Assembly: GCF_001956985.1 (NCBI RefSeq)
Contig: NZ_CP019082.1
Span: 2,976,001-3,040,000, forward strand
Direction of reading: 5' to 3'
From: Paludisphaera borealis
GTDB lineage: Bacteria; Planctomycetota; Planctomycetia; Isosphaerales; Isosphaeraceae
Length of the DNA: 64,000 nucleotides
Shown here: piece after piece, positions 14,319-23,387 of the stretch
Layout: each line of letters opens with the position of its first letter
How positions within the stretch are numbered: position 1 is the first letter of the stretch
The notes under the pieces: model-generated
Database searches by the model: none
What the model was told of the DNA's origin: nothing
Seen by the model: the letters and a program-made list of their open reading frames with translations, nothing else
Made by a program: the position numbers and the translations under genes

Positions 14319-15830
14319 ATGAAGACGGAACAGTTTCTCGAACATCATGGCATCAAAGGAAATCCGTTCAGCGAAGAGGACGCGCAGACCGACACGGTCT
14401 TCAAGCGTCGATGTATGGCGACGATCCATCACCCGGCGTGGAACAAGTTCTTCGGCAGTCCGGCCGATCCCTCGACGGCGCTGGTCTTCGGTGAGAAGGG
14501 GAGCGGCAAGACAGCCTTGCGGCTGCAAGCGACGTCGGAGATCGACGAATTCAACAAGGCCAACCCTTCCGAGCGAGTGTTCGTCATCTCCTATGACGAC
14601 TTCAACCCCTACCTGGACAACTTCCGGGTCGCCCTCCATTCGAACGACACGTCGCAGGTCCTCGGCCGGTGGCAGCTTCAGGACCACATGGACGCGATCT
14701 TGTCGCTCGGCGTGACGCAGCTCATCGACCTGCTGACGGCGGAGAAAATCGACCTCTCGGTCCTCAGCCTGGATCAGCGCCGCGACCTCTTGCTGCTGTC
14801 GGCCTTGTACGACGCCTCGACCGGCGAGCCGATCGAGAAGCGATGGAGCCGGCTTCGCCGTCGATCGGGCTTCCGTCCGCTCTGGAGCCGCCGCGATCTT
14901 CAGATCGGCTTCGGCACGACCCTGGCGGTCGTCGCCTTGATCGCCCTCTTCCCCAGCCTGCAAAGCTGGTCGCTGCTCCCCTGGCTGCTGGTCCCACTGG
15001 TCGCTGGCTGGATCTACTGGGGATGGCGGCTGGCCCGCGCCGAGTGGTACGCCCGCGACATCCGCAAGGGCCTGAAGGTGCTCAACCGCGACCCGTCGGC
15101 CCTACGCTGGGAGCTGCTCTGGTTCCAGCCGAGCGAACTCGGCGGCCAGCCGATGCCCACCGCGTCGCGCGGCCGGGCCGAAGAACGCTACGAACTGCTC
15201 CGCAAGTTCCAGGGCGTGCTCAACACGCTCGGCTACGGCGGCGTCGTCGTCCTGATCGACCGGGTCGACGAGCCGCAGCAGATCGAGGGCGACCCCCGCA
15301 AGATGCGCGCGTTCATCTGGCCCCTCCTGGACCACAAGTTCTTGCGCCACCCGGGGATCGGCGTCAAACTCCTGCTGCCGATCGAACTCGCCTACTACCT
15401 TGAGAAGGAAGACAAGGAGTTTTACGACCGCGCCCGGCCCGACAAGCTCAACATGATCAAGCCGCTAAGGTGGACCGGGGCTTCGCTTTACGACCTGGCA
15501 AGCGACCGACTGCGAGCCTGTCGAACGACCCCCTCGGCCAACGGCGACGCCCGCGCCGGCGACTCCCCGATCGAGAAGGCGGCCGACGGCTGGCGGCTCC
15601 GTGCCTTCGTCGACGAGACGATCAGCGACGACTACCTGAAGGACGCCCTGGGCAACCTGCGGACGCCTCGCCACCTGTTCAAGTTCCTGCACCGGCTGAT
15701 CGAGGAACACTGTCACCGTCACACCGAGGACCAGCCGCGCTGGAACGTCGACTACGACACGTTCCGCACCACCTACGCCTCGTACATGCGCGACCTGGAG
15801 GCCTTCGACCGCGGCTACGGCCACGGCTGA
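14319..15830 (+). CDS. KAP-like P-loop ATPase with membrane helices inside the ATPase domain
   Basis: A 503-residue protein. Walker A is GEKGSGKT (58-65) and a Walker B-like strand is VVVLIDRVDEP (309-319). Between them, about residues 196-236, are two hydrophobic helices. Transmembrane segments inserted into the P-loop domain are the hallmark of KAP NTPases, membrane-bound STAND-like ATPases implicated in signalling and phage defence. The C-terminal half (LRTPRHLFKFLHRLIEEH) is helical, as in the AAA/STAND lid region. No partner gene is adjacent: the next gene is a convergent WD40 protein. Function unknown; the family call is an inference from architecture. Confidence 0.65.
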   Translation: MKTEQFLEHHGIKGNPFSEEDAQTDTVFKRRCMATIHHPAWNKFFGSPADPSTALVFGEKGSGKTALRLQATSEIDEFNKANPSERVFVISYDDFNPYLDNFRVALHSNDTSQVLGRWQLQDHMDAILSLGVTQLIDLLTAEKIDLSVLSLDQRRDLLLLSALYDASTGEPIEKRWSRLRRRSGFRPLWSRRDLQIGFGTTLAVVALIALFPSLQSWSLLPWLLVPLVAGWIYWGWRLARAEWYARDIRKGLKVLNRDPSALRWELLWFQPSELGGQPMPTASRGRAEERYELLRKFQGVLNTLGYGGVVVLIDRVDEPQQIEGDPRKMRAFIWPLLDHKFLRHPGIGVKLLLPIELAYYLEKEDKEFYDRARPDKLNMIKPLRWTGASLYDLASDRLRACRTTPSANGDARAGDSPIEKAADGWRLRAFVDETISDDYLKDALGNLRTPRHLFKFLHRLIEEHCHRHTEDQPRWNVDYDTFRTTYASYMRDLEAFDRGYGHG

Positions 15831-15920: not shown

Positions 15921-17045
15921 TCACGAGTCCTTGAGAGCGAGAGCGGACGACGACTCGTGCGGCAACACGATGCGCTTCAAATAGACCTGGTTGAAGCTTC
16001 CCGAGAAGGCGAGCCAGCGGCCGTCCCTCGAAAAATCGAGCGAGCGGACCCATCCGAGCTCTCGGTCGACCTGGCCGGCGGAGTTTCCGGTCTCAGCGTT
16101 CCAGAACCGAATCCGCTGATCGCCTCCCGCCGAGGCCAGCGTCCGGCCGTCGGGCGAGAAGACCAGGGCGTGGACTTCCGCCGCATGTCCCGGGCAGCGC
16201 GCCTTGATTCGGTTGGTAGTCAGGTCCCAGACCTCGATCTGGCGTGAGTCGGGCCCCAGCCGGCTCAGGGCGATCGTGGCTCCGTCCGGCGACAGGCTGA
16301 AGGCGTGAACTCCCCGGTTCGTCCCATCAAGGCGATCGACCTCGCGACCGCTCCGCGGGTCCCAGAACTTGAGCTCGCCGTCAAAGCTCAGCGAGATGAG
16401 CAACGAGCCGTCAGGAACGTACACCAGTGCTCGAACGACGTCGCGATGTCCGCTCAACACGGCTCGCACCTGGTCGCTTTTCGGCTCCCAGATGCGGATC
16501 TGATGGTCGAAGCTCCCCACGGCCAGACTACGGCCGTCGGGCGCGAACGCCAGCGCCCGGCATGGGCCGAACAGGGCCTTCACCTCCGGAAACGTCTGGC
16601 TGTCCCGCCAGTTCCACATCGTCAGCCCGCACAGGCCGACCGACGCCACCGTACCGCCGTCGGGCGATACCGTCGCGGCGTAGGTCTCGGACGTGCTGGG
16701 CAGGCAGGCCATCTCCTCGCCCAGACTTTGCGGCGAAGGACCAACATCCCAGAGCTTGACCGTCTTGTCCCAGGACGACGAGATCAACGTCTCACCGTCA
16801 GGGGAGAACCGGACGCTCTCCACCAGCCCGACATGGCCTCTGAGGGCGATCATCCCGTCATTCGCGGGGGTCTCGTCGGCGGCGAAGAAAACGCAGAGCG
16901 TCACCAAGACGGCCGCCCCCGCCAGCCCTTCCCATGTGAACAACGACAGCCGGACCCTTCCGCCCGACGCCCTGGTTACAGCGTGGGCGTCATCGTCCAC
17001 AAACTCATCCCGCGCGTCGCGGCCTTGATACGCTCCCGATGCCAT
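15921..17045 (-). CDS. Membrane-anchored WD40-repeat protein (paralogue A)
   Basis: A 374-residue protein with an acidic cytoplasmic N-terminus, one membrane helix (about 38-55) and about six WD40 blades outside. Blade motifs include LRGHVGLVESVRFSPDGETLISSS, FDHQIRIWEP and LVFSPDGRTLASAGGDQRIRFW. ATG 17045 was chosen because GGAGGA lies 9 nt upstream; an in-frame ATG at 17093 lacks one. The pre-helix sequence SGGRVRLSLFTWE resembles SGGVRLSLMSRE in the WD40 protein at 21668-22999, so the two are paralogues. It probably acts as an interaction scaffold or sensor for the nearby kinase; that role is inferred from context. Confidence 0.85.
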   Translation of the reverse strand: MASGAYQGRDARDEFVDDDAHAVTRASGGRVRLSLFTWEGLAGAAVLVTLCVFFAADETPANDGMIALRGHVGLVESVRFSPDGETLISSSWDKTVKLWDVGPSPQSLGEEMACLPSTSETYAATVSPDGGTVASVGLCGLTMWNWRDSQTFPEVKALFGPCRALAFAPDGRSLAVGSFDHQIRIWEPKSDQVRAVLSGHRDVVRALVYVPDGSLLISLSFDGELKFWDPRSGREVDRLDGTNRGVHAFSLSPDGATIALSRLGPDSRQIEVWDLTTNRIKARCPGHAAEVHALVFSPDGRTLASAGGDQRIRFWNAETGNSAGQVDRELGWVRSLDFSRDGRWLAFSGSFNQVYLKRIVLPHESSSALALKDS

Positions 17046-17924
17046 TTCCCCATCCTCCAGAGTCTTTCCCTGGCGGTGGAAAGACCACGACACAGTCGTC
17101 TCGCGAAGCCGCGGCGCGCGACCTCACAGTAATCCTCGGATCGAGCCCAGCCCTTGAGCGGCTCGCGAAGCTCAAAACCCGGAACGCCTGTTCCGCGTCG
17201 ATTCGCGGGCCGCCCCGATTGCGAGCGAGCCGGGAACGCTTCTCCCCCCGCTCACGCGACGCGCCTCTCGGTGAACCTACGCCCACACCGCCTTGCCGGC
17301 GACCATCACACGACCTCATGCACGTCAACCCTAGAACACGCACGGAGCGAAGTCCTAGCTTGGTCAGCATCACATCTTATACGAAAGAATTCGGACTGAG
17401 CCCGCCCTGACCATGAAAACCCTTTCATGCATCCGATGCGCCGTTGCGAAAAAACCACATCACGGCAAATGCGGAGCGGCGCGGGGGTCGTGTGGATCGT
17501 CTGACGTGCACATGTTGGCAGTCGCGTTGCAAGAATCGCAAAGCAAGCCAATATGGCAGTCACCAGCGGCCGGCCCAATCCCGGAGATTTCACGCAACGT
17601 TTTTATTTATAATGAATTACAAGACCACAACGTCTCTGGAGCATGACCGGCTTCCACGGTATTTCGCTCCCGAGCGATCTCAACGATCGGGTTCCCGGCG
17701 TCGAGATCCGTGTCGACGTCAGCTCTCGGCTTCGAGTCCGTTTGCGAGGCGACGCCGAACATGCCAACCGTGTTTCACGGCTGATTTTCTTTGGCAGTCG
17801 GCGGCTTGCGCATCTCGATGCGCTCATCGGGCCCGTCTTCGGAGAGGAGAGCGACCAGAACGCACCGAGCGACGCGGCGCGTTAATTCGTTCCGGCGCGC
17901 CGATTCGTCGGTTGGTTGGCCAGG
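17046..17924. other. Long intergenic region with an AT-rich island
   Basis: About 880 bp between the kinase gene and WD40 paralogue A. Composition is less GC-rich than its neighbours. An AT island at 17599-17620 contains TATAAT (17608-17613) on the plus strand and TATAAA on the minus strand. The promoter of WD40 paralogue A should lie in the first part. One possible small plus-strand gene is listed separately. A minus-strand frame beginning GTG at 17593 has a signal-like hydrophobic start but atypical codon use and was not accepted. Confidence 0.5.
17643..17885 (+). CDS. Possible small hypothetical protein
   Basis: An 80-codon frame, opening 30 bp after a TATAAT, with moderately GC-rich third positions. 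The peptide has a plausible mix of residues, including VEIRVDVSSRLRVRLRG and HLDALIGPVFGEE, with no low-complexity tracts. Against it: the only Shine-Dalgarno-like GGAG is one base from the ATG, too close, and the size is small. No family recognised. Confidence 0.25.
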   Translation: MTGFHGISLPSDLNDRVPGVEIRVDVSSRLRVRLRGDAEHANRVSRLIFFGSRRLAHLDALIGPVFGEESDQNAPSDAAR

Positions 17925-20900
17925 CTAGGCGGCGATGCGGGGCCGCGTTCTCCAGGGCAGGACGCCGGGAAAGAGGCCCGAAACGGGGTGTCGCGGTTGG
18001 ACGACCGGACGGTCGGTCGGCGGCTTCTCGGCCTTTCCTTTTTGAACCGCCGGGGCGTCGGTGCTCATGGTGTGCTTGGGCAGACCGAACCACGGGTTGA
18101 CGAGCGCCTCGGCGATCGTCGCCGGCGCGACCGGGGCGACGTCGGCGGTGGTCGTCGGCGATTCGCCGATCACGGATCGAGCCTCGGCGAGGAACCGCAG
18201 CAGGTCGAGGTCGTTGGGACCGTCGCGGAGCCGGCACGCCTCGGCGCGGCGGAACCAGGAGCGGGCTTCGGCGGGCGTGCCCAGCCGCCAGAGCGTCATC
18301 GCCATGAAGAAGCCGTCGAAGGCGTTGTCGTCGCCAAGCTTCAGCGACCGTTCGAACGCCGCCTTGGCCCCGCTCCAGTCGCCGTTGCGATACCGGGCGA
18401 CCCCCAGCGTGTTCCAGCAGGCCGCGTCTTGTGACGCTTCTCCGGTGACGGCCTTTTCAGCGTACTTGAGAGCCTGGGCCGGGTTGCGAGCCGATTCGTC
18501 AGACGCCGTGACGAGATACCAGGCGACGTTGTTGAGTCGGATTTGCTCGAACGCGGCGCGCTTGGCGTCGTATTCGCCGGCCGTCTTGAGGGCGGCGTCG
18601 GAGTCTTCGGGGCGGTCGGTCTGCCAGTAGAGCCGACTGAGCACCTCGTGCAGCCGACCGAGTTCCCGCTTGTAGCGCGGCACGCGCGGGTAGTCGGTCG
18701 CCAACCGTTTCAGGGTGGCGATCGCCAGCTCCAGCGAGGTCTTCGCCTCGTCGTGCCGCTTGGCGTCGAGCTGAAGTTCGCCCAGCCGCGCGTGGCAGAG
18801 CGCCAGCGACTCCAGCCCGGCCGGCAATCCCGGCTCGACGGTCTGGACCTCCTCGACCAGCGTCAGCCCCTTGCGATAAGCCTGCTCCGCGTCGGCTGTC
18901 TTGCCCCCGAGGTGAAGCCAGGTTCCCAGCCCCGTGTGAGTGGAGGCCTGCTCGTTCTTGAAGTCGAGGAACGGGAGCTGCTCGGACTCGTGATTCGCCT
19001 CGATGGTGGTGAGGAGGTCGAGGGCCTCTTGCGCGTCGGCCCGCGCCCGCTCGATCCGGCCGGTGTCCCCCTCGAAGCTCGCCTTCTGGTTGAGCGCGTG
19101 GGCCAAGGCGAATTGATAGCGGATTTCGTGCGGCTTGCGAGCGACGATCTTCCGAAAGAGCTGGAGCGATTGGTCGACGGCCCACTCGCCGGGCTCGTAG
19201 ACGGCCTGGCGGCGCAGCAGGTTGCCGTACTTCTCCAGGACGCCGGCGAGCTGATACAGGTTCTGGTCGTCGTCGGGCGTCTGGGCGAGCAGCCAGACCA
19301 TGACCTGCATCGCCTTGCGATACGCCTCCTCGGCGTCGACGATGTCGCCGAGCGTGAGCCGGATGTCGCCGATCCGGTTGTAGGCGGCGAACGTCCGGTG
19401 GATGACGAGCGGATCGGCGTCGTTGCGGGAGGCGATCTGCTCGTAAAATTGCAGGGCCATCCGGATCAGGTAACGGTCCTGACGATCCTCTCCCGGCTCG
19501 CGGGGGAACCACGCTTCGGCCGAGTTGAGGTAAAGGTCCAGCGCGCGGTGCGCCATGATCAAGTTGTCCTGGGCCCGCCGCAGCTCGACGCCGCGCGCAT
19601 CCGACTCGGCTCGGATCCTCGACAACGCCTTCCAGATCACGAAGGTGCTCATCGATAGGCAGACGGTCGCCAATACAAGGAAGGCCCCGAGCGACGCGGC
19701 GATCGTGCGATGCCGCCGGGTCCACCGCCAGGCGCGTTCCAGGGGCGAGGGGCGGCGGGCGAGGATCGGCTGATCGTCGAGAAACCGCCTGAGGTCCTCG
19801 GCCATCTCGTGAGCCGTCGCATAGCGGTTGCCCGCCTCCTTGGCCATCGCCTTCAGGACGATCGTTTCCAGGTCGCGCGGCAGGAGCGGCTCGTGGCGCG
19901 AGGGGGGCGTGGGCTCCTCGTTGGTAATCTGGTGCACCAGCATCGGCATGTCGCCGCCTGGAAACGCGGGCCGCAAGGCCAGCAGCTCGTAGAGGGTCAC
20001 GCCGAGCGAGTAGACGTCGGTGCGGTGGTCGACGATACCCCGGCACGCCAACGCCTGCTCGGGGCTCATGTACCGGAGCGTGCCGACCAGATCGCCGGTG
20101 ACGGTCAAACCCGAGTCGCCCTGGAGCCGCGCCAGGCCGAAGTCGGCGATCCAGATCTCGCCGCGGTCGTCGAGCAGCAGATTGGCGGGCTTGACGTCGC
20201 GGTGGACCACGCCCAGGCTGTGCGCGTGCTCGAGTGCGTCGGCCGCCTGGACGCCGAGCCGGGCGACGCCCCGGAAGAACGGCGATCCGCGCCGCTGGTC
20301 CTTTGACAGGCGGGCCGGCGTCAGCTCCACCGAGCCGGATTCGGGCCAGTCCCAGGAGTGCATCCAGTCGGGACGGGTTTCGCGCGCCTGTTTGAGATCG
20401 GTGATCACCGCGGCCAGCGATCGGCCCGCGATGTACTGCATCGCGTAGTAATGGGCGCCCGATTCGCAGCCGACGGCGTAGATCGGTACGATGTGCGGAT
20501 GATGCAGGTGCGCCGCCGCCTGGACCTCGACCTGGAACCGCTGCACCTGCCTCGGGTCCATCGCCGCCGTGAACGGCAACAGCTTGAGCGCCACCCGCCG
20601 GCCCAGGGAGATCTGTTCGGCCTCGTAGACGACGCCCATGCCGCCGCGTCCCAGCTCGCGGATGATCCGGTAATCGCCCAGGCGGTCGGGAAGCTCCGGG
20701 TGGTCCCCCGCCTCGCCGTGCAGGCCGGTCGCCGCGAGGTCCTCGCCCTGAAACCAGGCGCCGGCCCCCTGAAGGCAGTCGAGCCCTTCGAGGCATTCGG
20801 CCAGCTCGGCCGCGATCGCCTCGTGCGCGCGCAAAAACGACGAGCGGTTCGGCCGCGCGCCGCGATCGCAGGCCGCCACGTAGTCTTCGAGAGCCGCGAT

Positions 20901-21029
20901 CAGGCGATGGTCGGAGGCGGGCTCGTCCTGTTGTCCGGGACACGGGTCGAAGGCCGACGATTCGGTCGTGGTCGAGCCGCCGCTCTCGTAGAGGCGCCGA
21001 CTCGCCGAAGGCGACCGTTCAAGGTCCAT
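17925..21029 (-). CDS. Ser/Thr protein kinase with membrane helix and TPR-rich C-terminus
   Basis: A 1034-residue protein of typical planctomycete build. An N-terminal helical region (1-115) precedes a complete kinase domain (about 120-425): GRGGMG (127-132), Lys149 in VALKLL, HRDVKPAN (Asp278), DFG (296-298) and MSPEQ. One membrane helix spans about 443-466. The rest carries many TPR-like repeats such as AEEAYRKAMQVM, DAEQAYRKGLTLVEE and AKAAFERSLKLGDDNAFD. The ATG overlaps the sigma-factor stop by 11 bp, so the kinase is translated with it. Such sigma/kinase pairs are a recognised planctomycete signalling layout in which the kinase is thought to control sigma activity; phosphorylation here is unproven. 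Confidence 0.93.
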   Translation of the reverse strand: MDLERSPSASRRLYESGGSTTTESSAFDPCPGQQDEPASDHRLIAALEDYVAACDRGARPNRSSFLRAHEAIAAELAECLEGLDCLQGAGAWFQGEDLAATGLHGEAGDHPELPDRLGDYRIIRELGRGGMGVVYEAEQISLGRRVALKLLPFTAAMDPRQVQRFQVEVQAAAHLHHPHIVPIYAVGCESGAHYYAMQYIAGRSLAAVITDLKQARETRPDWMHSWDWPESGSVELTPARLSKDQRRGSPFFRGVARLGVQAADALEHAHSLGVVHRDVKPANLLLDDRGEIWIADFGLARLQGDSGLTVTGDLVGTLRYMSPEQALACRGIVDHRTDVYSLGVTLYELLALRPAFPGGDMPMLVHQITNEEPTPPSRHEPLLPRDLETIVLKAMAKEAGNRYATAHEMAEDLRRFLDDQPILARRPSPLERAWRWTRRHRTIAASLGAFLVLATVCLSMSTFVIWKALSRIRAESDARGVELRRAQDNLIMAHRALDLYLNSAEAWFPREPGEDRQDRYLIRMALQFYEQIASRNDADPLVIHRTFAAYNRIGDIRLTLGDIVDAEEAYRKAMQVMVWLLAQTPDDDQNLYQLAGVLEKYGNLLRRQAVYEPGEWAVDQSLQLFRKIVARKPHEIRYQFALAHALNQKASFEGDTGRIERARADAQEALDLLTTIEANHESEQLPFLDFKNEQASTHTGLGTWLHLGGKTADAEQAYRKGLTLVEEVQTVEPGLPAGLESLALCHARLGELQLDAKRHDEAKTSLELAIATLKRLATDYPRVPRYKRELGRLHEVLSRLYWQTDRPEDSDAALKTAGEYDAKRAAFEQIRLNNVAWYLVTASDESARNPAQALKYAEKAVTGEASQDAACWNTLGVARYRNGDWSGAKAAFERSLKLGDDNAFDGFFMAMTLWRLGTPAEARSWFRRAEACRLRDGPNDLDLLRFLAEARSVIGESPTTTADVAPVAPATIAEALVNPWFGLPKHTMSTDAPAVQKGKAEKPPTDRPVVQPRHPVSGLFPGVLPWRTRPRIAA

Positions 21030-21648
21030 CGAGCACCTCCAGAGAACGCCGAAGCCGGGCCAAAGCTCTGGCCCACAGATTCTTCACGCTGTCCTCGGTC
21101 CGTCCCATCCGCTCCGCCACCTGGGGAAAGCTCAGTCCCTCAAGCTGGCGGAAGATGATGACGTCCCGGTAGTCGTTGGGAAGGCCGCCGATCGCGTCGG
21201 CCAGGAGGACGGCTTGTTCGCGTCGCGAGGCCTGGGCGCTGGGCGAACTCTGGGCGGCGACCAGTTGTCCTCCCAGCGATCGGGACGAGCGGTCGAGGTC
21301 TTCCCAGAGGTCGCGTTCGAGCCGAACGTCGCGTCGCTTGGTTCCGAAGTAACGGCGGACCTGGTTCGCCAGGATGCCGCTCAAAATCTGCCGCAGCCAG
21401 GCGAGAAATTCGCCCTCCGACGAGCCACGGAACATGCTGATCTTGCGATGCACTTCCAGCGAGACGTCCTGGACGATGTCGAGGACGTCGACCTTCCCCT
21501 GAATCCTCCGCCCGATCTGCACCCGGGCGAGCAAGGCGAGGTAGTTGTGGTAACGCTGAAGCAAAATCCCAAGGGCCGCGCCGTCGCCCGCGCTCGCCAG
21601 GTCGAGCAATCGGCCGACGGCTGCGCTCGATTCGGCGGTACGGCTCAT
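21019..21648 (-). CDS. ECF-type RNA polymerase sigma factor
   Basis: A 209-residue sigma-70-family protein. Region 2 is visible as VDVLDIVQDVSLEVHRKISMFRG then EFLAWLRQILSGILANQVRRY, with region 2-4 linker Asp/Arg-rich. Region 4 is LPNDYRDVIIFRQLEGLSFPQVAERMGRTEDSVKNLWARAL, the helix-turn-helix that reads the -35 element. An upstream in-frame start at 21771 was rejected: ATG 21648 has GGAG 11 nt upstream and conserved sequence starts just after it. It lies 19 bp after the WD40 stop and overlaps the kinase start by 11 bp, making a three-gene unit. No anti-sigma factor gene is nearby; the kinase probably fills that role. Confidence 0.92.
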   Translation of the reverse strand: MSRTAESSAAVGRLLDLASAGDGAALGILLQRYHNYLALLARVQIGRRIQGKVDVLDIVQDVSLEVHRKISMFRGSSEGEFLAWLRQILSGILANQVRRYFGTKRRDVRLERDLWEDLDRSSRSLGGQLVAAQSSPSAQASRREQAVLLADAIGGLPNDYRDVIIFRQLEGLSFPQVAERMGRTEDSVKNLWARALARLRRSLEVLDGP

Positions 21649-21667
21649 AAAATCAGGCTCCGTGTGA

Positions 21668-22999
21668 TCAGTCACCGATCCTTTCGGATCGCGCCGCGAA
21701 ATCTTCCGAGAAAAACTTGGAAACCGGGGAACCGCTCCGAGACCGGGACGAAACCCGATGGGGTTTACCAAGGCCGGACGCGGAAGACCAGGCGATTTGA
21801 ACGGATTTCAGGCCGCCGTCGTCGAGGCCTTCGGGAGCGGGTACCGAACTCCGCGCCGTCCGTTCGACCGCTGGATCGGCTTGGATCGTGGTCGGCCGGT
21901 CGTCGCCCCGCGCCTCGGCGAAGTTCCAGAAATGGATCGAGCCGTCGCGGCCTCCGTAGGCGATCCGCGCGCCGTCCTCCGTGAAGGCCAACGTCTTCAC
22001 CCAGCCGAGCTTCTCGTCAAGGACCGCTTCGACGGCCCCCGTCTCGACGTTCCAGACCTTGACGGTCTGGTTCATGGTGGCCGTCGCCAGGAACCGGCCG
22101 TCGGGCGAGAGCACGAGGCGGTTGACGCCGTCGGGCTGGCCGAGGAACCGTCGTCGCAGCGCGCCGGTCTGAAGGTCCCAGAGCGTCGGACCGCCGCTGC
22201 CGAATCCCCAGGGAGAGACGGCCACCGAGCGGCCGTCGGCCGTGAACGCGAAGCAGTGGACCGGCCCGATCTTCGCGGCGAGCGACGTCAACTCGCGGCC
22301 GGTCTTCCAGTTCCAGAGCTTGAATTCGCCGGTGAAGTTGACCGCCCCCAGGGTCTCGCCGTCGGCCGAAAACGCCACGGAGTGAATCCGGTCCTGGAAC
22401 CCCTGGAGCGTGGCGATTTCCCGCATCGACGGCGCATCGACGATCCGGACCGCCCCCTCGGGCGTGCCGATCGCCAGCGTCCGGGAGTCGGCGGCGAAGG
22501 CGAGGCCGCGATAGTCGCCCCCTTGCTTCGTGTACACGAGGGTCCAGGCTCGCTCGCCGCGCTCCCAGACGGCGAGGTCGTTCAACCCTCCCACCGCCAG
22601 AAAGCGGCGGTCCGGGCTGGGAGCCAGCGCGAACGGGTGCGAGCCGTGCGGCAGCCGCTCGATCTCGCGGCCCCAGGACGACGGGCCGGATCGGAGGTCC
22701 CAGAACCGAACGGTGTCGTCCCGCCCACATGAAATCAACGTTTGCTGATCGGACGCGACGACCAGCGACTCGAGCAAGTCGTCGTGGGCCGACTCGATCG
22801 CCTGCGCGCCGGGGACGCCCGGCTCGCCATCGGTCAGGGCGACGACCAGAACGCCGACGACCAGAACGCCGACCACGACCGCCAGGGCCTCGCGGCTCAT
22901 CAGCGAGAGCCTGACCCCGCCGCTCCGAATCCGCCCGGCCGCCTCCGTGCTGCCGGAATCGTCGAAACGGTCCATCCTGAACGTGATCGATCCTTGCAT
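21668..22999 (-). CDS. Membrane-anchored WD40-repeat protein (paralogue B)
   Basis: A 443-residue protein: cytoplasmic N-terminus of about 35 residues, one long hydrophobic helix (about 38-56), then WD40 blades. Clear blades are QTLISCGRDDTVRFWDLRSG, FLATATMNQTVKVWNVETG and RIAYGGRDGSIHFWNF. Start ATG 22999 has GGGAGA 12 nt upstream; the frame is open 89 codons further but with Arg-rich, non-protein-like sequence. It is the first gene of the WD40-sigma-kinase unit and a paralogue of the WD40 gene at 15921-17045. It may present a signal or docking surface to the kinase; inferred from position only. Confidence 0.87.
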   Translation of the reverse strand: MQGSITFRMDRFDDSGSTEAAGRIRSGGVRLSLMSREALAVVVGVLVVGVLVVALTDGEPGVPGAQAIESAHDDLLESLVVASDQQTLISCGRDDTVRFWDLRSGPSSWGREIERLPHGSHPFALAPSPDRRFLAVGGLNDLAVWERGERAWTLVYTKQGGDYRGLAFAADSRTLAIGTPEGAVRIVDAPSMREIATLQGFQDRIHSVAFSADGETLGAVNFTGEFKLWNWKTGRELTSLAAKIGPVHCFAFTADGRSVAVSPWGFGSGGPTLWDLQTGALRRRFLGQPDGVNRLVLSPDGRFLATATMNQTVKVWNVETGAVEAVLDEKLGWVKTLAFTEDGARIAYGGRDGSIHFWNFAEARGDDRPTTIQADPAVERTARSSVPAPEGLDDGGLKSVQIAWSSASGLGKPHRVSSRSRSGSPVSKFFSEDFAARSERIGD

Positions 23000-23387
23000 G
23001 ATTTCCGAGTCTCCCGTTTTCGATGGGCGCAGAGTCGTTCCGCGGCCCAGGTGTTCGAAACTTGGGTTGCTTGCCGCATCCATGAACCAACCGAACCGTC
23101 GGCGAAGGAGACGGTTCCGACATCCTAGACTTCGTCTGAGAGACGCGATTCTTCGGAAGGTTGACCGATTCTTCACGATCGCAATCGATGAACGGCCGCG
23201 ACGATCCAGCTTGGCGCGCACTTCGTCTGAGACGGAGGGCGCGCTAGTGCAGGAGGCGACAGGCAAGAGCCCCGGCCGGCTCGAAGCCGGTCCGATGGTC
23301 TTCCAGGGATCTAGTCGCGGTTTCCGCGCGGGAAGCGCCGCGCGATCCGAGAGATTTCGTCCGGGCCGAGCCGGCGGGGCGGAGGAA
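23000..23387. other. Intergenic region upstream of the WD40-sigma-kinase unit
   Basis: 388 bp between paralogue B and rsgA (minus strand). The promoter of the signalling unit must lie here. A 13-bp direct repeat ACTTCGTCTGAGA occurs at 23129-23141 and 23220-23232, 91 bp apart. No clear -35/-10 pair was recognised. Confidence 0.45.

Follow-up and report, generated by a model that had tools for sequence, protein, structure and literature searches.

To our knowledge, Planctomycetes encode many extracytoplasmic function (ECF) sigma factors in the neighbourhood of kinases and WD40 proteins, most of them with no promoter or target that we know of. A locus of Paludisphaera borealis PX4 raises this question in compact form. 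Within a stretch of 64,000 nucleotides (contig NZ_CP019082.1, positions 2,976,001 to 3,040,000; hereafter the window), a membrane WD40 gene (WdA), an ECF sigma gene and a gene for a Hanks-type Ser/Thr kinase with a transmembrane helix and TPR repeats run head-to-tail, and a second membrane WD40 gene (WdB), a paralogue of WdA, lies beyond the kinase. With which of these membrane proteins does the sigma factor belong, and what does it transcribe? Our preferred answer, to which we assign a probability of about 0.6, is that WdA, sigma and kinase form an autoregulated ECF operon, with the WD40 gene as second target, WdA as the likeliest feedback partner or sensor and the kinase as an extra input. 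The locus offers a concrete candidate sigma-promoter pair, open to a reporter test in a laboratory host, together with a short list of targets, namely the sigma gene, one WD40 gene and perhaps a tail-specific protease.

All four genes are encoded on the minus strand (Table 1). WdA and sigma are separated by 19 bp, sigma and kinase overlap by 11 bp, and kinase and WdB are 879 bp apart; genes, order, spacing and coordinates agree with a preliminary description of the locus. A Pfam scan found WD40 repeats in WdA and WdB (PF00400), Pkinase and TPR in the kinase and sigma-70 region 4 in the sigma factor. The same description had noted that an anti-sigma gene is missing, and none of the families in the scan of eight window proteins was of the anti-sigma kind either (the two WD40 proteins being judged by the best 25 of their 39 and 31 families).

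A candidate promoter shared by WD40 and sigma genes

Comparisons were made across a sample of 45 genomes of the family, here numbered G001 onwards, six of which belong to the genus (P. borealis and five relatives). An alignment of the WdA 5' flanks revealed the blocks GCGGCGC and CGACTA, 17 bases apart, in all six genus genomes at 261-312 bp before WdA. This pattern, P1, occurs exactly once in the 7.65-Mb P. borealis genome and eight times in the six genus genomes, where six of the copies are the WdA site and a reversed control pattern matched 56 times. In G031 an insertion places P1 532 bp from the gene of RsgA while the distance to WdA is still 266 bp, and P1 therefore goes with WdA. Outside the genus, in three genomes of two other genera, lone WD40 genes unlinked to sigma are preceded by the same -35 block with a -10 block of CGTCTA (G001, G002) or TGACTC (G014). 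At the genus and outside sites the distance from the element to the WD40 start codon is 227-352 bp; the element was not found before the WD40 genes of G021 and G022, where a close sigma is absent.

The sigma genes carry related sites. A second, weaker copy precedes the P. borealis sigma gene (Table 1), and at the same place in the relatives there are three mismatches in G028, two in G030 and no copy seen in the other three. Before the sigma genes outside the genus the relaxed element, GCGGCGC-N17-YGWCT(A), was matched with no mismatch in G027, 55 bp before the sigma start, with one in G001 and with two each in G002 and G014; random 420-bp windows reach 0, 1 and 2 mismatches in 0.15%, 1.0% and 14% of cases, in a null drawn at spacing 17 only, the sigma genes having been tried at 16-18. 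Among 651 gene upstreams the relaxed element was exact in nine, each of which belongs to a WD40 or a sigma gene: WdA in five cases, a single WD40 gene in three and a sigma-kinase pair in one, the last entered as the G027 kinase open reading frame (ORF), whose start was called inside the sigma gene. Five of the nine belong to genomes from which the motif was derived, and the other four were found among 430 genes outside the genus (rough P 9e-8). The scan missed WdA of G032, for which a longer frame was called, and skipped genes with less than 420 bp upstream. Since the element stands before WD40 or sigma genes even where these lie far apart, the WD40 gene looks like a target of the sigma factor itself and its product like a probable partner. 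GCGGCGC-N17-YGWCT(A) is thus probably the promoter of this sigma factor, as judged from its sequence and placement.

Further targets appear to be few. Eighteen matches in ten genomes comprised eight at WD40 genes, seven inside ORFs and three outside ORFs, the last preceding a protease gene, a DUF6677 gene and one further gene of G014. When the 115 ORFs downstream of element matches were compared all against all, the families that recurred between genomes were WD40, sigma and a protease of the Prc/Tsp type. In G028 a second exact copy (L118:1501-1530) precedes a tail-specific protease gene (Pfam TSP_NTD, PDZ, S41), and in G031 a relaxed copy (L252) precedes its orthologue, 90% identical to that of G028; the copies lie 243 and 252 bp before the start, respectively, and agree in both blocks with a diverged 17-base spacer. 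The remaining exact copy, in G029, is the one before the DUF6677 gene. Among 21 relaxed matches in P. borealis, those outside ORFs and upstream of genes belong to WdA, an M13 peptidase gene (120 bp before it) and, at a greater distance, a gyrA-like gene, and in G031 a relaxed element lies 66 bp before an M16 peptidase gene (L242, L250; Pfam). The M13 and M16 peptidases are leads only, because neither site recurred in a second genome in the 115-ORF comparison. In G001 an extended pattern matched 16 times against 5 for the control, and of the 13 matches with the locus read only those at the WD40 and sigma genes precede a gene. A large regulon was not found, as match totals in the genus, ten-genome, P. 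borealis and G031 scans did not exceed those of the controls. The run of predicted extracytoplasmic proteases, of which the tail-specific one alone recurs, hints at envelope protein quality control. From the distribution of the element, the sigma factor probably acts on its own gene, on the WD40 gene and on some proteolysis in the envelope, although we hold the last of these only tentatively.

The distribution of the genes points the same way for sigma and WD40. Sigma relatives of at least 66% identity occur in 10 of the 45 genomes; WD40 relatives, with E up to 1e-38, occur in 11, and both sets include the six genus genomes. The WD40 is present in nine of the ten genomes with a close sigma against two of the 35 without (Fisher p 6e-7 by genome). 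The sole genome with a close sigma and no WD40, G027, is 77% complete and also has no match to the ATPase that neighbours WdB, and G003, which shares its genus with G001 and G002, has no sigma or WD40 match at cut-offs of 1e-40 and 1e-38. In all six genus genomes WdA-sigma-kinase adjoins RsgA and WdB adjoins the ATPase gene, in G029 as two halves on different contigs. The WdA-sigma gap of 19 bp is peculiar to P. borealis, the five relatives having 119-365 bp. In G001, G002 and G022 a WD40 gene sits between RsgA and the ATPase gene with no sigma or kinase in between, and the WD40 gene of G014 and G021 adjoins the ATPase gene, with no RsgA in the stretch read. The sigma gene of G001 and G002 is located elsewhere, with no adjacent kinase found; in G001, where the next gene was read, a gene for a deiodinase/EF-hand protein follows it directly. 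In G014 and G027 a kinase adjoins sigma. This survey of the RsgA-ATPase site covers part of the family, as several ATPase contigs end before the WD40 site and G044 was left out.

Because G001 and G002 have the WD40 at this site without sigma and kinase, and the sigma without an adjacent kinase, the WD40 gene goes with sigma and not with the kinase. The sigma factor would accordingly have its constant partner in the WD40 protein rather than in the kinase. The gene orders also suggest that the sigma-kinase pair was inserted between the WD40 genes. The synteny anticipated in the preliminary description holds within the genus, where the WdA-sigma-kinase order is kept in all six genomes, and breaks down outside it; the link between WD40 and sigma goes beyond mere adjacency, with an upstream element in common and the co-occurrence given above.

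Kinase switch or another regulator

The sigma factor belongs to TIGR02984 (Sig-70_plancto1; NCBIfam 211.8 bits, cut-off 183.75) and is the only one of 64 TIGR02984 matches in the P. borealis genome above that cut-off. The kinase has a catalytic domain, one transmembrane helix (residues 447-465) and a TPR region after the helix; its relatives are nearly full length with 63-67% identity in four of the five other genus genomes and split into two pieces in G029. Inside the kinase gene, on the same strand, ARAGORN called a tRNA-Val at 20518-20607, which is probably false.

Such a pair could be an ordinary kinase-switched ECF system of the EcfP/PknT type, in which the kinase would sense outside conditions and phosphorylate and activate the sigma factor, leaving WdA a mere downstream product. 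The overlapping sigma and kinase genes, adjoining in the five other genus genomes as well, fit this explanation, as do the readable catalytic motifs VALK, HRDVKPAN and DFG, a sigma linker S[ST]PS conserved in 10 of 10 orthologues, and the kinase-linked ECF groups of Planctomycetes described in the available sections of PMC8999054. The known kinase route to ECF activation, as far as the accessible parts of PMC8999054 and PMC8103513 present it, is phosphorylation in region 2.2, which in ECF43-type sigma factors has a phosphorylatable Ser/Thr in place of its acidic motif. Here, however, region 2.2 reads DVLD, and both Asp are conserved in 10 of 10 orthologues, so that core contact may need no phosphate. 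Nine of the ten close orthologues have L, A or E at the third position and one has S, whereas 13 of 15 other family sigma factors aligned have S there. A phosphoswitch in region 2.2 is thus not supported, the known Ser/Thr phosphosite being missing in nine of ten orthologues, and the lack of conservation at this residue makes phosphorylation there unlikely. Together with the sigma genes of G001 and G002 that have no adjoining kinase, this makes a simple kinase switch unlikely. Other sites may serve: the linker SSPS and an invariant SS at residues 121-122 of the sigma factor are possible phosphosites, should the kinase act on it. All ten orthologues keep the stretch DSVKN-W of region 4.2 unchanged, a point in favour of the autoregulated operon.

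Returning to the autoregulated operon, several points weigh against it. Counted by genus, the WD40-sigma link amounts to only 3 of 4 against 1 of 17 (p 0.012), weaker because the genomes are related. The -10 code was relaxed after the WD40 sites of G001, G002 and G014 had been inspected, and the strict genus consensus gives 1, 1 and 2 mismatches there. The two mismatches before sigma in G002 and G014 are a weak match, being reached by those 14% of random windows, and distant sigma genes score too, with one mismatch for G020b and one, at spacing 18, for G014e. Typical ECF -35 boxes contain AAC according to the available part of PMC8103513, and GCGGCGC does not. Total matches fall below the controls, with 21 against 46 in P. 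borealis, 9 against 28 in G031 and 18 against 144 in the ten genomes. The protease site was found in only two of the six genus genomes, and a P. borealis counterpart was not located. Contact between WdA and the sigma factor, finally, is hypothetical. As a separate observation, distant sigma genes of G017, G018, G020 and G014 (L101, L102, L104, L098) have CCGGCGCGTGACAA, or a sequence close to it, at 62-100 bp upstream, perhaps another promoter class.

Instead, a different regulator might bind at the element, or the element might act at the RNA level in the leader of the WD40 gene. Its distance to the WD40 start codon would make a long leader, and in G001 and G002 a housekeeping-like TTGCAT/TATGAC site, noted by eye, lies nearer the gene. 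Against this stand the fixed 17-bp spacing with an ECF-like CGWC -10 block and the range of genes that the element precedes, which comprises sigma genes, WD40 genes in genomes that also have the sigma, and an unrelated protease gene; we consider such a role unlikely.

The two WD40 proteins and the proposed circuit

WdA and WdB are paralogues, as the preliminary description had it: they align with 35% identity across 363 columns (E 1e-54), and in a one-way search with WdA as query WdB was the top match elsewhere in the genome (8.7e-56; runner-up 1.7e-28). The start of WdB was taken as the ATG at 17045, the earliest start in the ORF list being a GTG at 17093. By hydrophobicity and a positive-inside count, each protein has a single hydrophobic helix near the N-terminus with positive residues preceding it, and the propellers are therefore expected outside; WdA is predicted to be a single-pass membrane protein with its N-terminus in and C-terminus out, the topology of a membrane anti-sigma factor. 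In the helix scan WdB of G031 had no helix above threshold and the row for WdB of G032 was mis-framed. The similarity of the pre-helix sequences that had been pointed out earlier is also borne out, since [VI]R[LF][SPAG] is present, by eye, in six of six WdA, six of six WdB and the single WD40 proteins of G001, G002 and G014; it was not seen in those of G021 and G022. An AlphaFold2 model of WdA from an alignment of five sequences has a confident propeller at about residues 64-366, a helix at 36-55 and disordered ends, and its best Foldseek match is 5yzv_B, a prokaryotic WD40 domain (E 6.7e-24); the propeller fold was checked by model for WdA and by the PF00400 profile for WdB. The cytoplasmic tail of about 34 residues is predicted to be disordered, with a predicted local distance difference test score (pLDDT) below 50 for residues 1-34, and a classical anti-sigma domain in WdA is rejected on this ground and for want of any such family among the Pfam and NCBIfam families shown.

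In a tree, WdA forms one clade across the genus (support 100/98) and so does WdB (100/100), and the duplication is therefore older than the genus radiation; it may also predate the other genera (approximately unbiased test, p 0.187). The WD40 proteins change fast, genus relatives being 44-50% identical to P. borealis, compared with 73-80% for sigma and 84-88% for the ATPase. In the WdB/hsp20 region there is no element match with fewer than two mismatches in either direction. The preliminary description had suggested that the kinase controls the sigma factor with WdA and WdB as its alternative sensors or docking platforms. This suggestion could draw on the common pre-helix motif and topology of the two proteins and on the place of their genes beside the unit in all six genus genomes, but is improbable, because the two differ in upstream element (WdA alone has it), age and neighbours, the paralogues are old and divergent, WD40 genes of G001, G002 and G022 occupy this site with neither sigma nor kinase there, and the WD40 tracks sigma rather than the kinase.

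For the autoregulated operon we propose the following circuit. The sigma factor would read GCGGCGC-N17-YGWCT(A), with its own gene and one membrane WD40 gene as recurrent targets; in Paludisphaera the two would be fused into one operon, and in some members of the genus an extracytoplasmic tail-specific protease gene would be a third target. WdA, with its short disordered cytoplasmic tail and extracytoplasmic propeller, would be made when sigma is active and would most likely be its feedback partner or sensor. The kinase, its catalytic domain inside and its TPR region outside, would be an additional or optional input, and any action on sigma would not pass through the region-2.2 serine known elsewhere. 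WdB is an older paralogue that lacks the element and lies beside hsp20 in relatives. Where the ECF sigma factor of a known system is co-transcribed with a single-pass membrane protein, that protein usually regulates it, which makes WdA the first candidate regulator; that WdA feeds back on sigma is nevertheless a tentative proposal, to which we give somewhat less than even odds. A bolder and, in our judgement, unlikely extension would make the membrane WD40 protein a new kind of transmembrane ECF partner, whose propeller would read envelope stress while the disordered VRLS-type tail would hold or release sigma, with sigma making more propeller and envelope proteases and the kinase phosphorylating the tail or the sigma linker. 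If true, WD40 propellers would replace classical anti-sigma sensors in these Planctomycetes.

Neighbouring features and known systems

Table 1. Positions, within the window, of the genes and candidate regulatory sites discussed
Feature	Position	Strand	Remark
WdA, membrane WD40 gene	21668..22999	-	start ATG
ECF sigma gene	21019..21648	-	start ATG
Hanks-type Ser/Thr kinase-transmembrane-TPR gene	17925..21029	-	1034 aa
WdB, second membrane WD40 gene, WdA paralogue	15921..17045	-	in-frame ATG; no P1-type element 5'
P1, candidate ECF promoter GCGGCGC-N17-CGACTA	23312..23341	-	312 bp before WdA ATG
Second, weaker copy, GCGGCGC-N16-TGACTG	21669..21697	-	49 bp before sigma ATG; spacing 16, not 17
Palindrome-like AGCCAATATGGCA before WdB	17546..17558		TGCCAWWWTGGCA in some relatives

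Between kinase and WdB, four genus relatives carry a divergent hsp20 gene (L086:6117-6569, L087, L088, L089), the contig of G029 ending before that position, and hsp20 is also found beside the WD40 gene in G001 and G022. In P. borealis hsp20 was not recognisable in 17046-17924, where protein matches were not significant (best E 0.009, in an implausible position, and 0.19 where the gene would be expected). In relatives TGCCAWWWTGGCA, with half-sites GGCAGT and ACTGCC noted by eye, lies between hsp20 and WdB; among the six genus genomes its exact form was found only in G028 and G032, at the WdB site, and once elsewhere in G029. The ATPase next to WdB (14319-15830) is present in 38 of the 45 family genomes, with no match in seven, and weakly matches the DS41_1 anti-phage and Sll1717 ATPase models, below their cut-offs.

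The classical comparison is the RpoE/RseA type, an operon of an autoregulated ECF sigma factor and a membrane anti-sigma factor. Like it, the sigma factor here seems to control its own operon, which includes a predicted single-pass N-in/C-out protein, and in addition an envelope protease gene; unlike RseA, WdA has a short, presumably disordered tail and no anti-sigma domain. Within Planctomycetes, the kinase-linked groups ECF59, ECF61, ECF62 and ECF217 (PMC8999054, available sections) share with this locus a sigma gene that directly adjoins the gene of a transmembrane Ser/Thr kinase and no anti-sigma gene seen, a likeness by gene adjacency and not by group models; here, in contrast, a WD40 gene heads the operon and an upstream element ties it to sigma. 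An ECF61 example in that source comes from Planctomycetales bacterium 71-10, our G032, and is not equated with the orthologue of this sigma factor. EcfP/PknT of Vibrio, EcfK/PknS of Xanthomonas and group ECF43 also combine an ECF sigma factor with an adjacent kinase, but region 2.2 here still has its two Asp and lacks a conserved Ser/Thr. ECF57 sigma factors, which bear C-terminal WD40 repeats (PMC8999054, same sections), likewise couple a WD40 propeller to an ECF sigma factor in Planctomycetes, whereas the WD40 here is a separate membrane protein encoded by its own gene. Planctomycetal membrane kinases with outside (periplasmic) TPR or WD40 arrays, as the accessible part of PMC11032199 presents them, resemble this kinase in having the catalytic part inside, one helix and the repeats outside, but here WD40 and TPR are on different proteins. 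WD40 genes near kinase and sigma-70 genes in Planctomycetes have already been reported (PMC5587647, available part). Open-licence literature contained no report on a Paludisphaera sigma factor, kinase or WD40 protein among the matches listed, a weak absence given the restriction to that licence. The parts are thus of a known kind, a TIGR02984 ECF sigma factor beside a transmembrane kinase, and the regulation is the new aspect.

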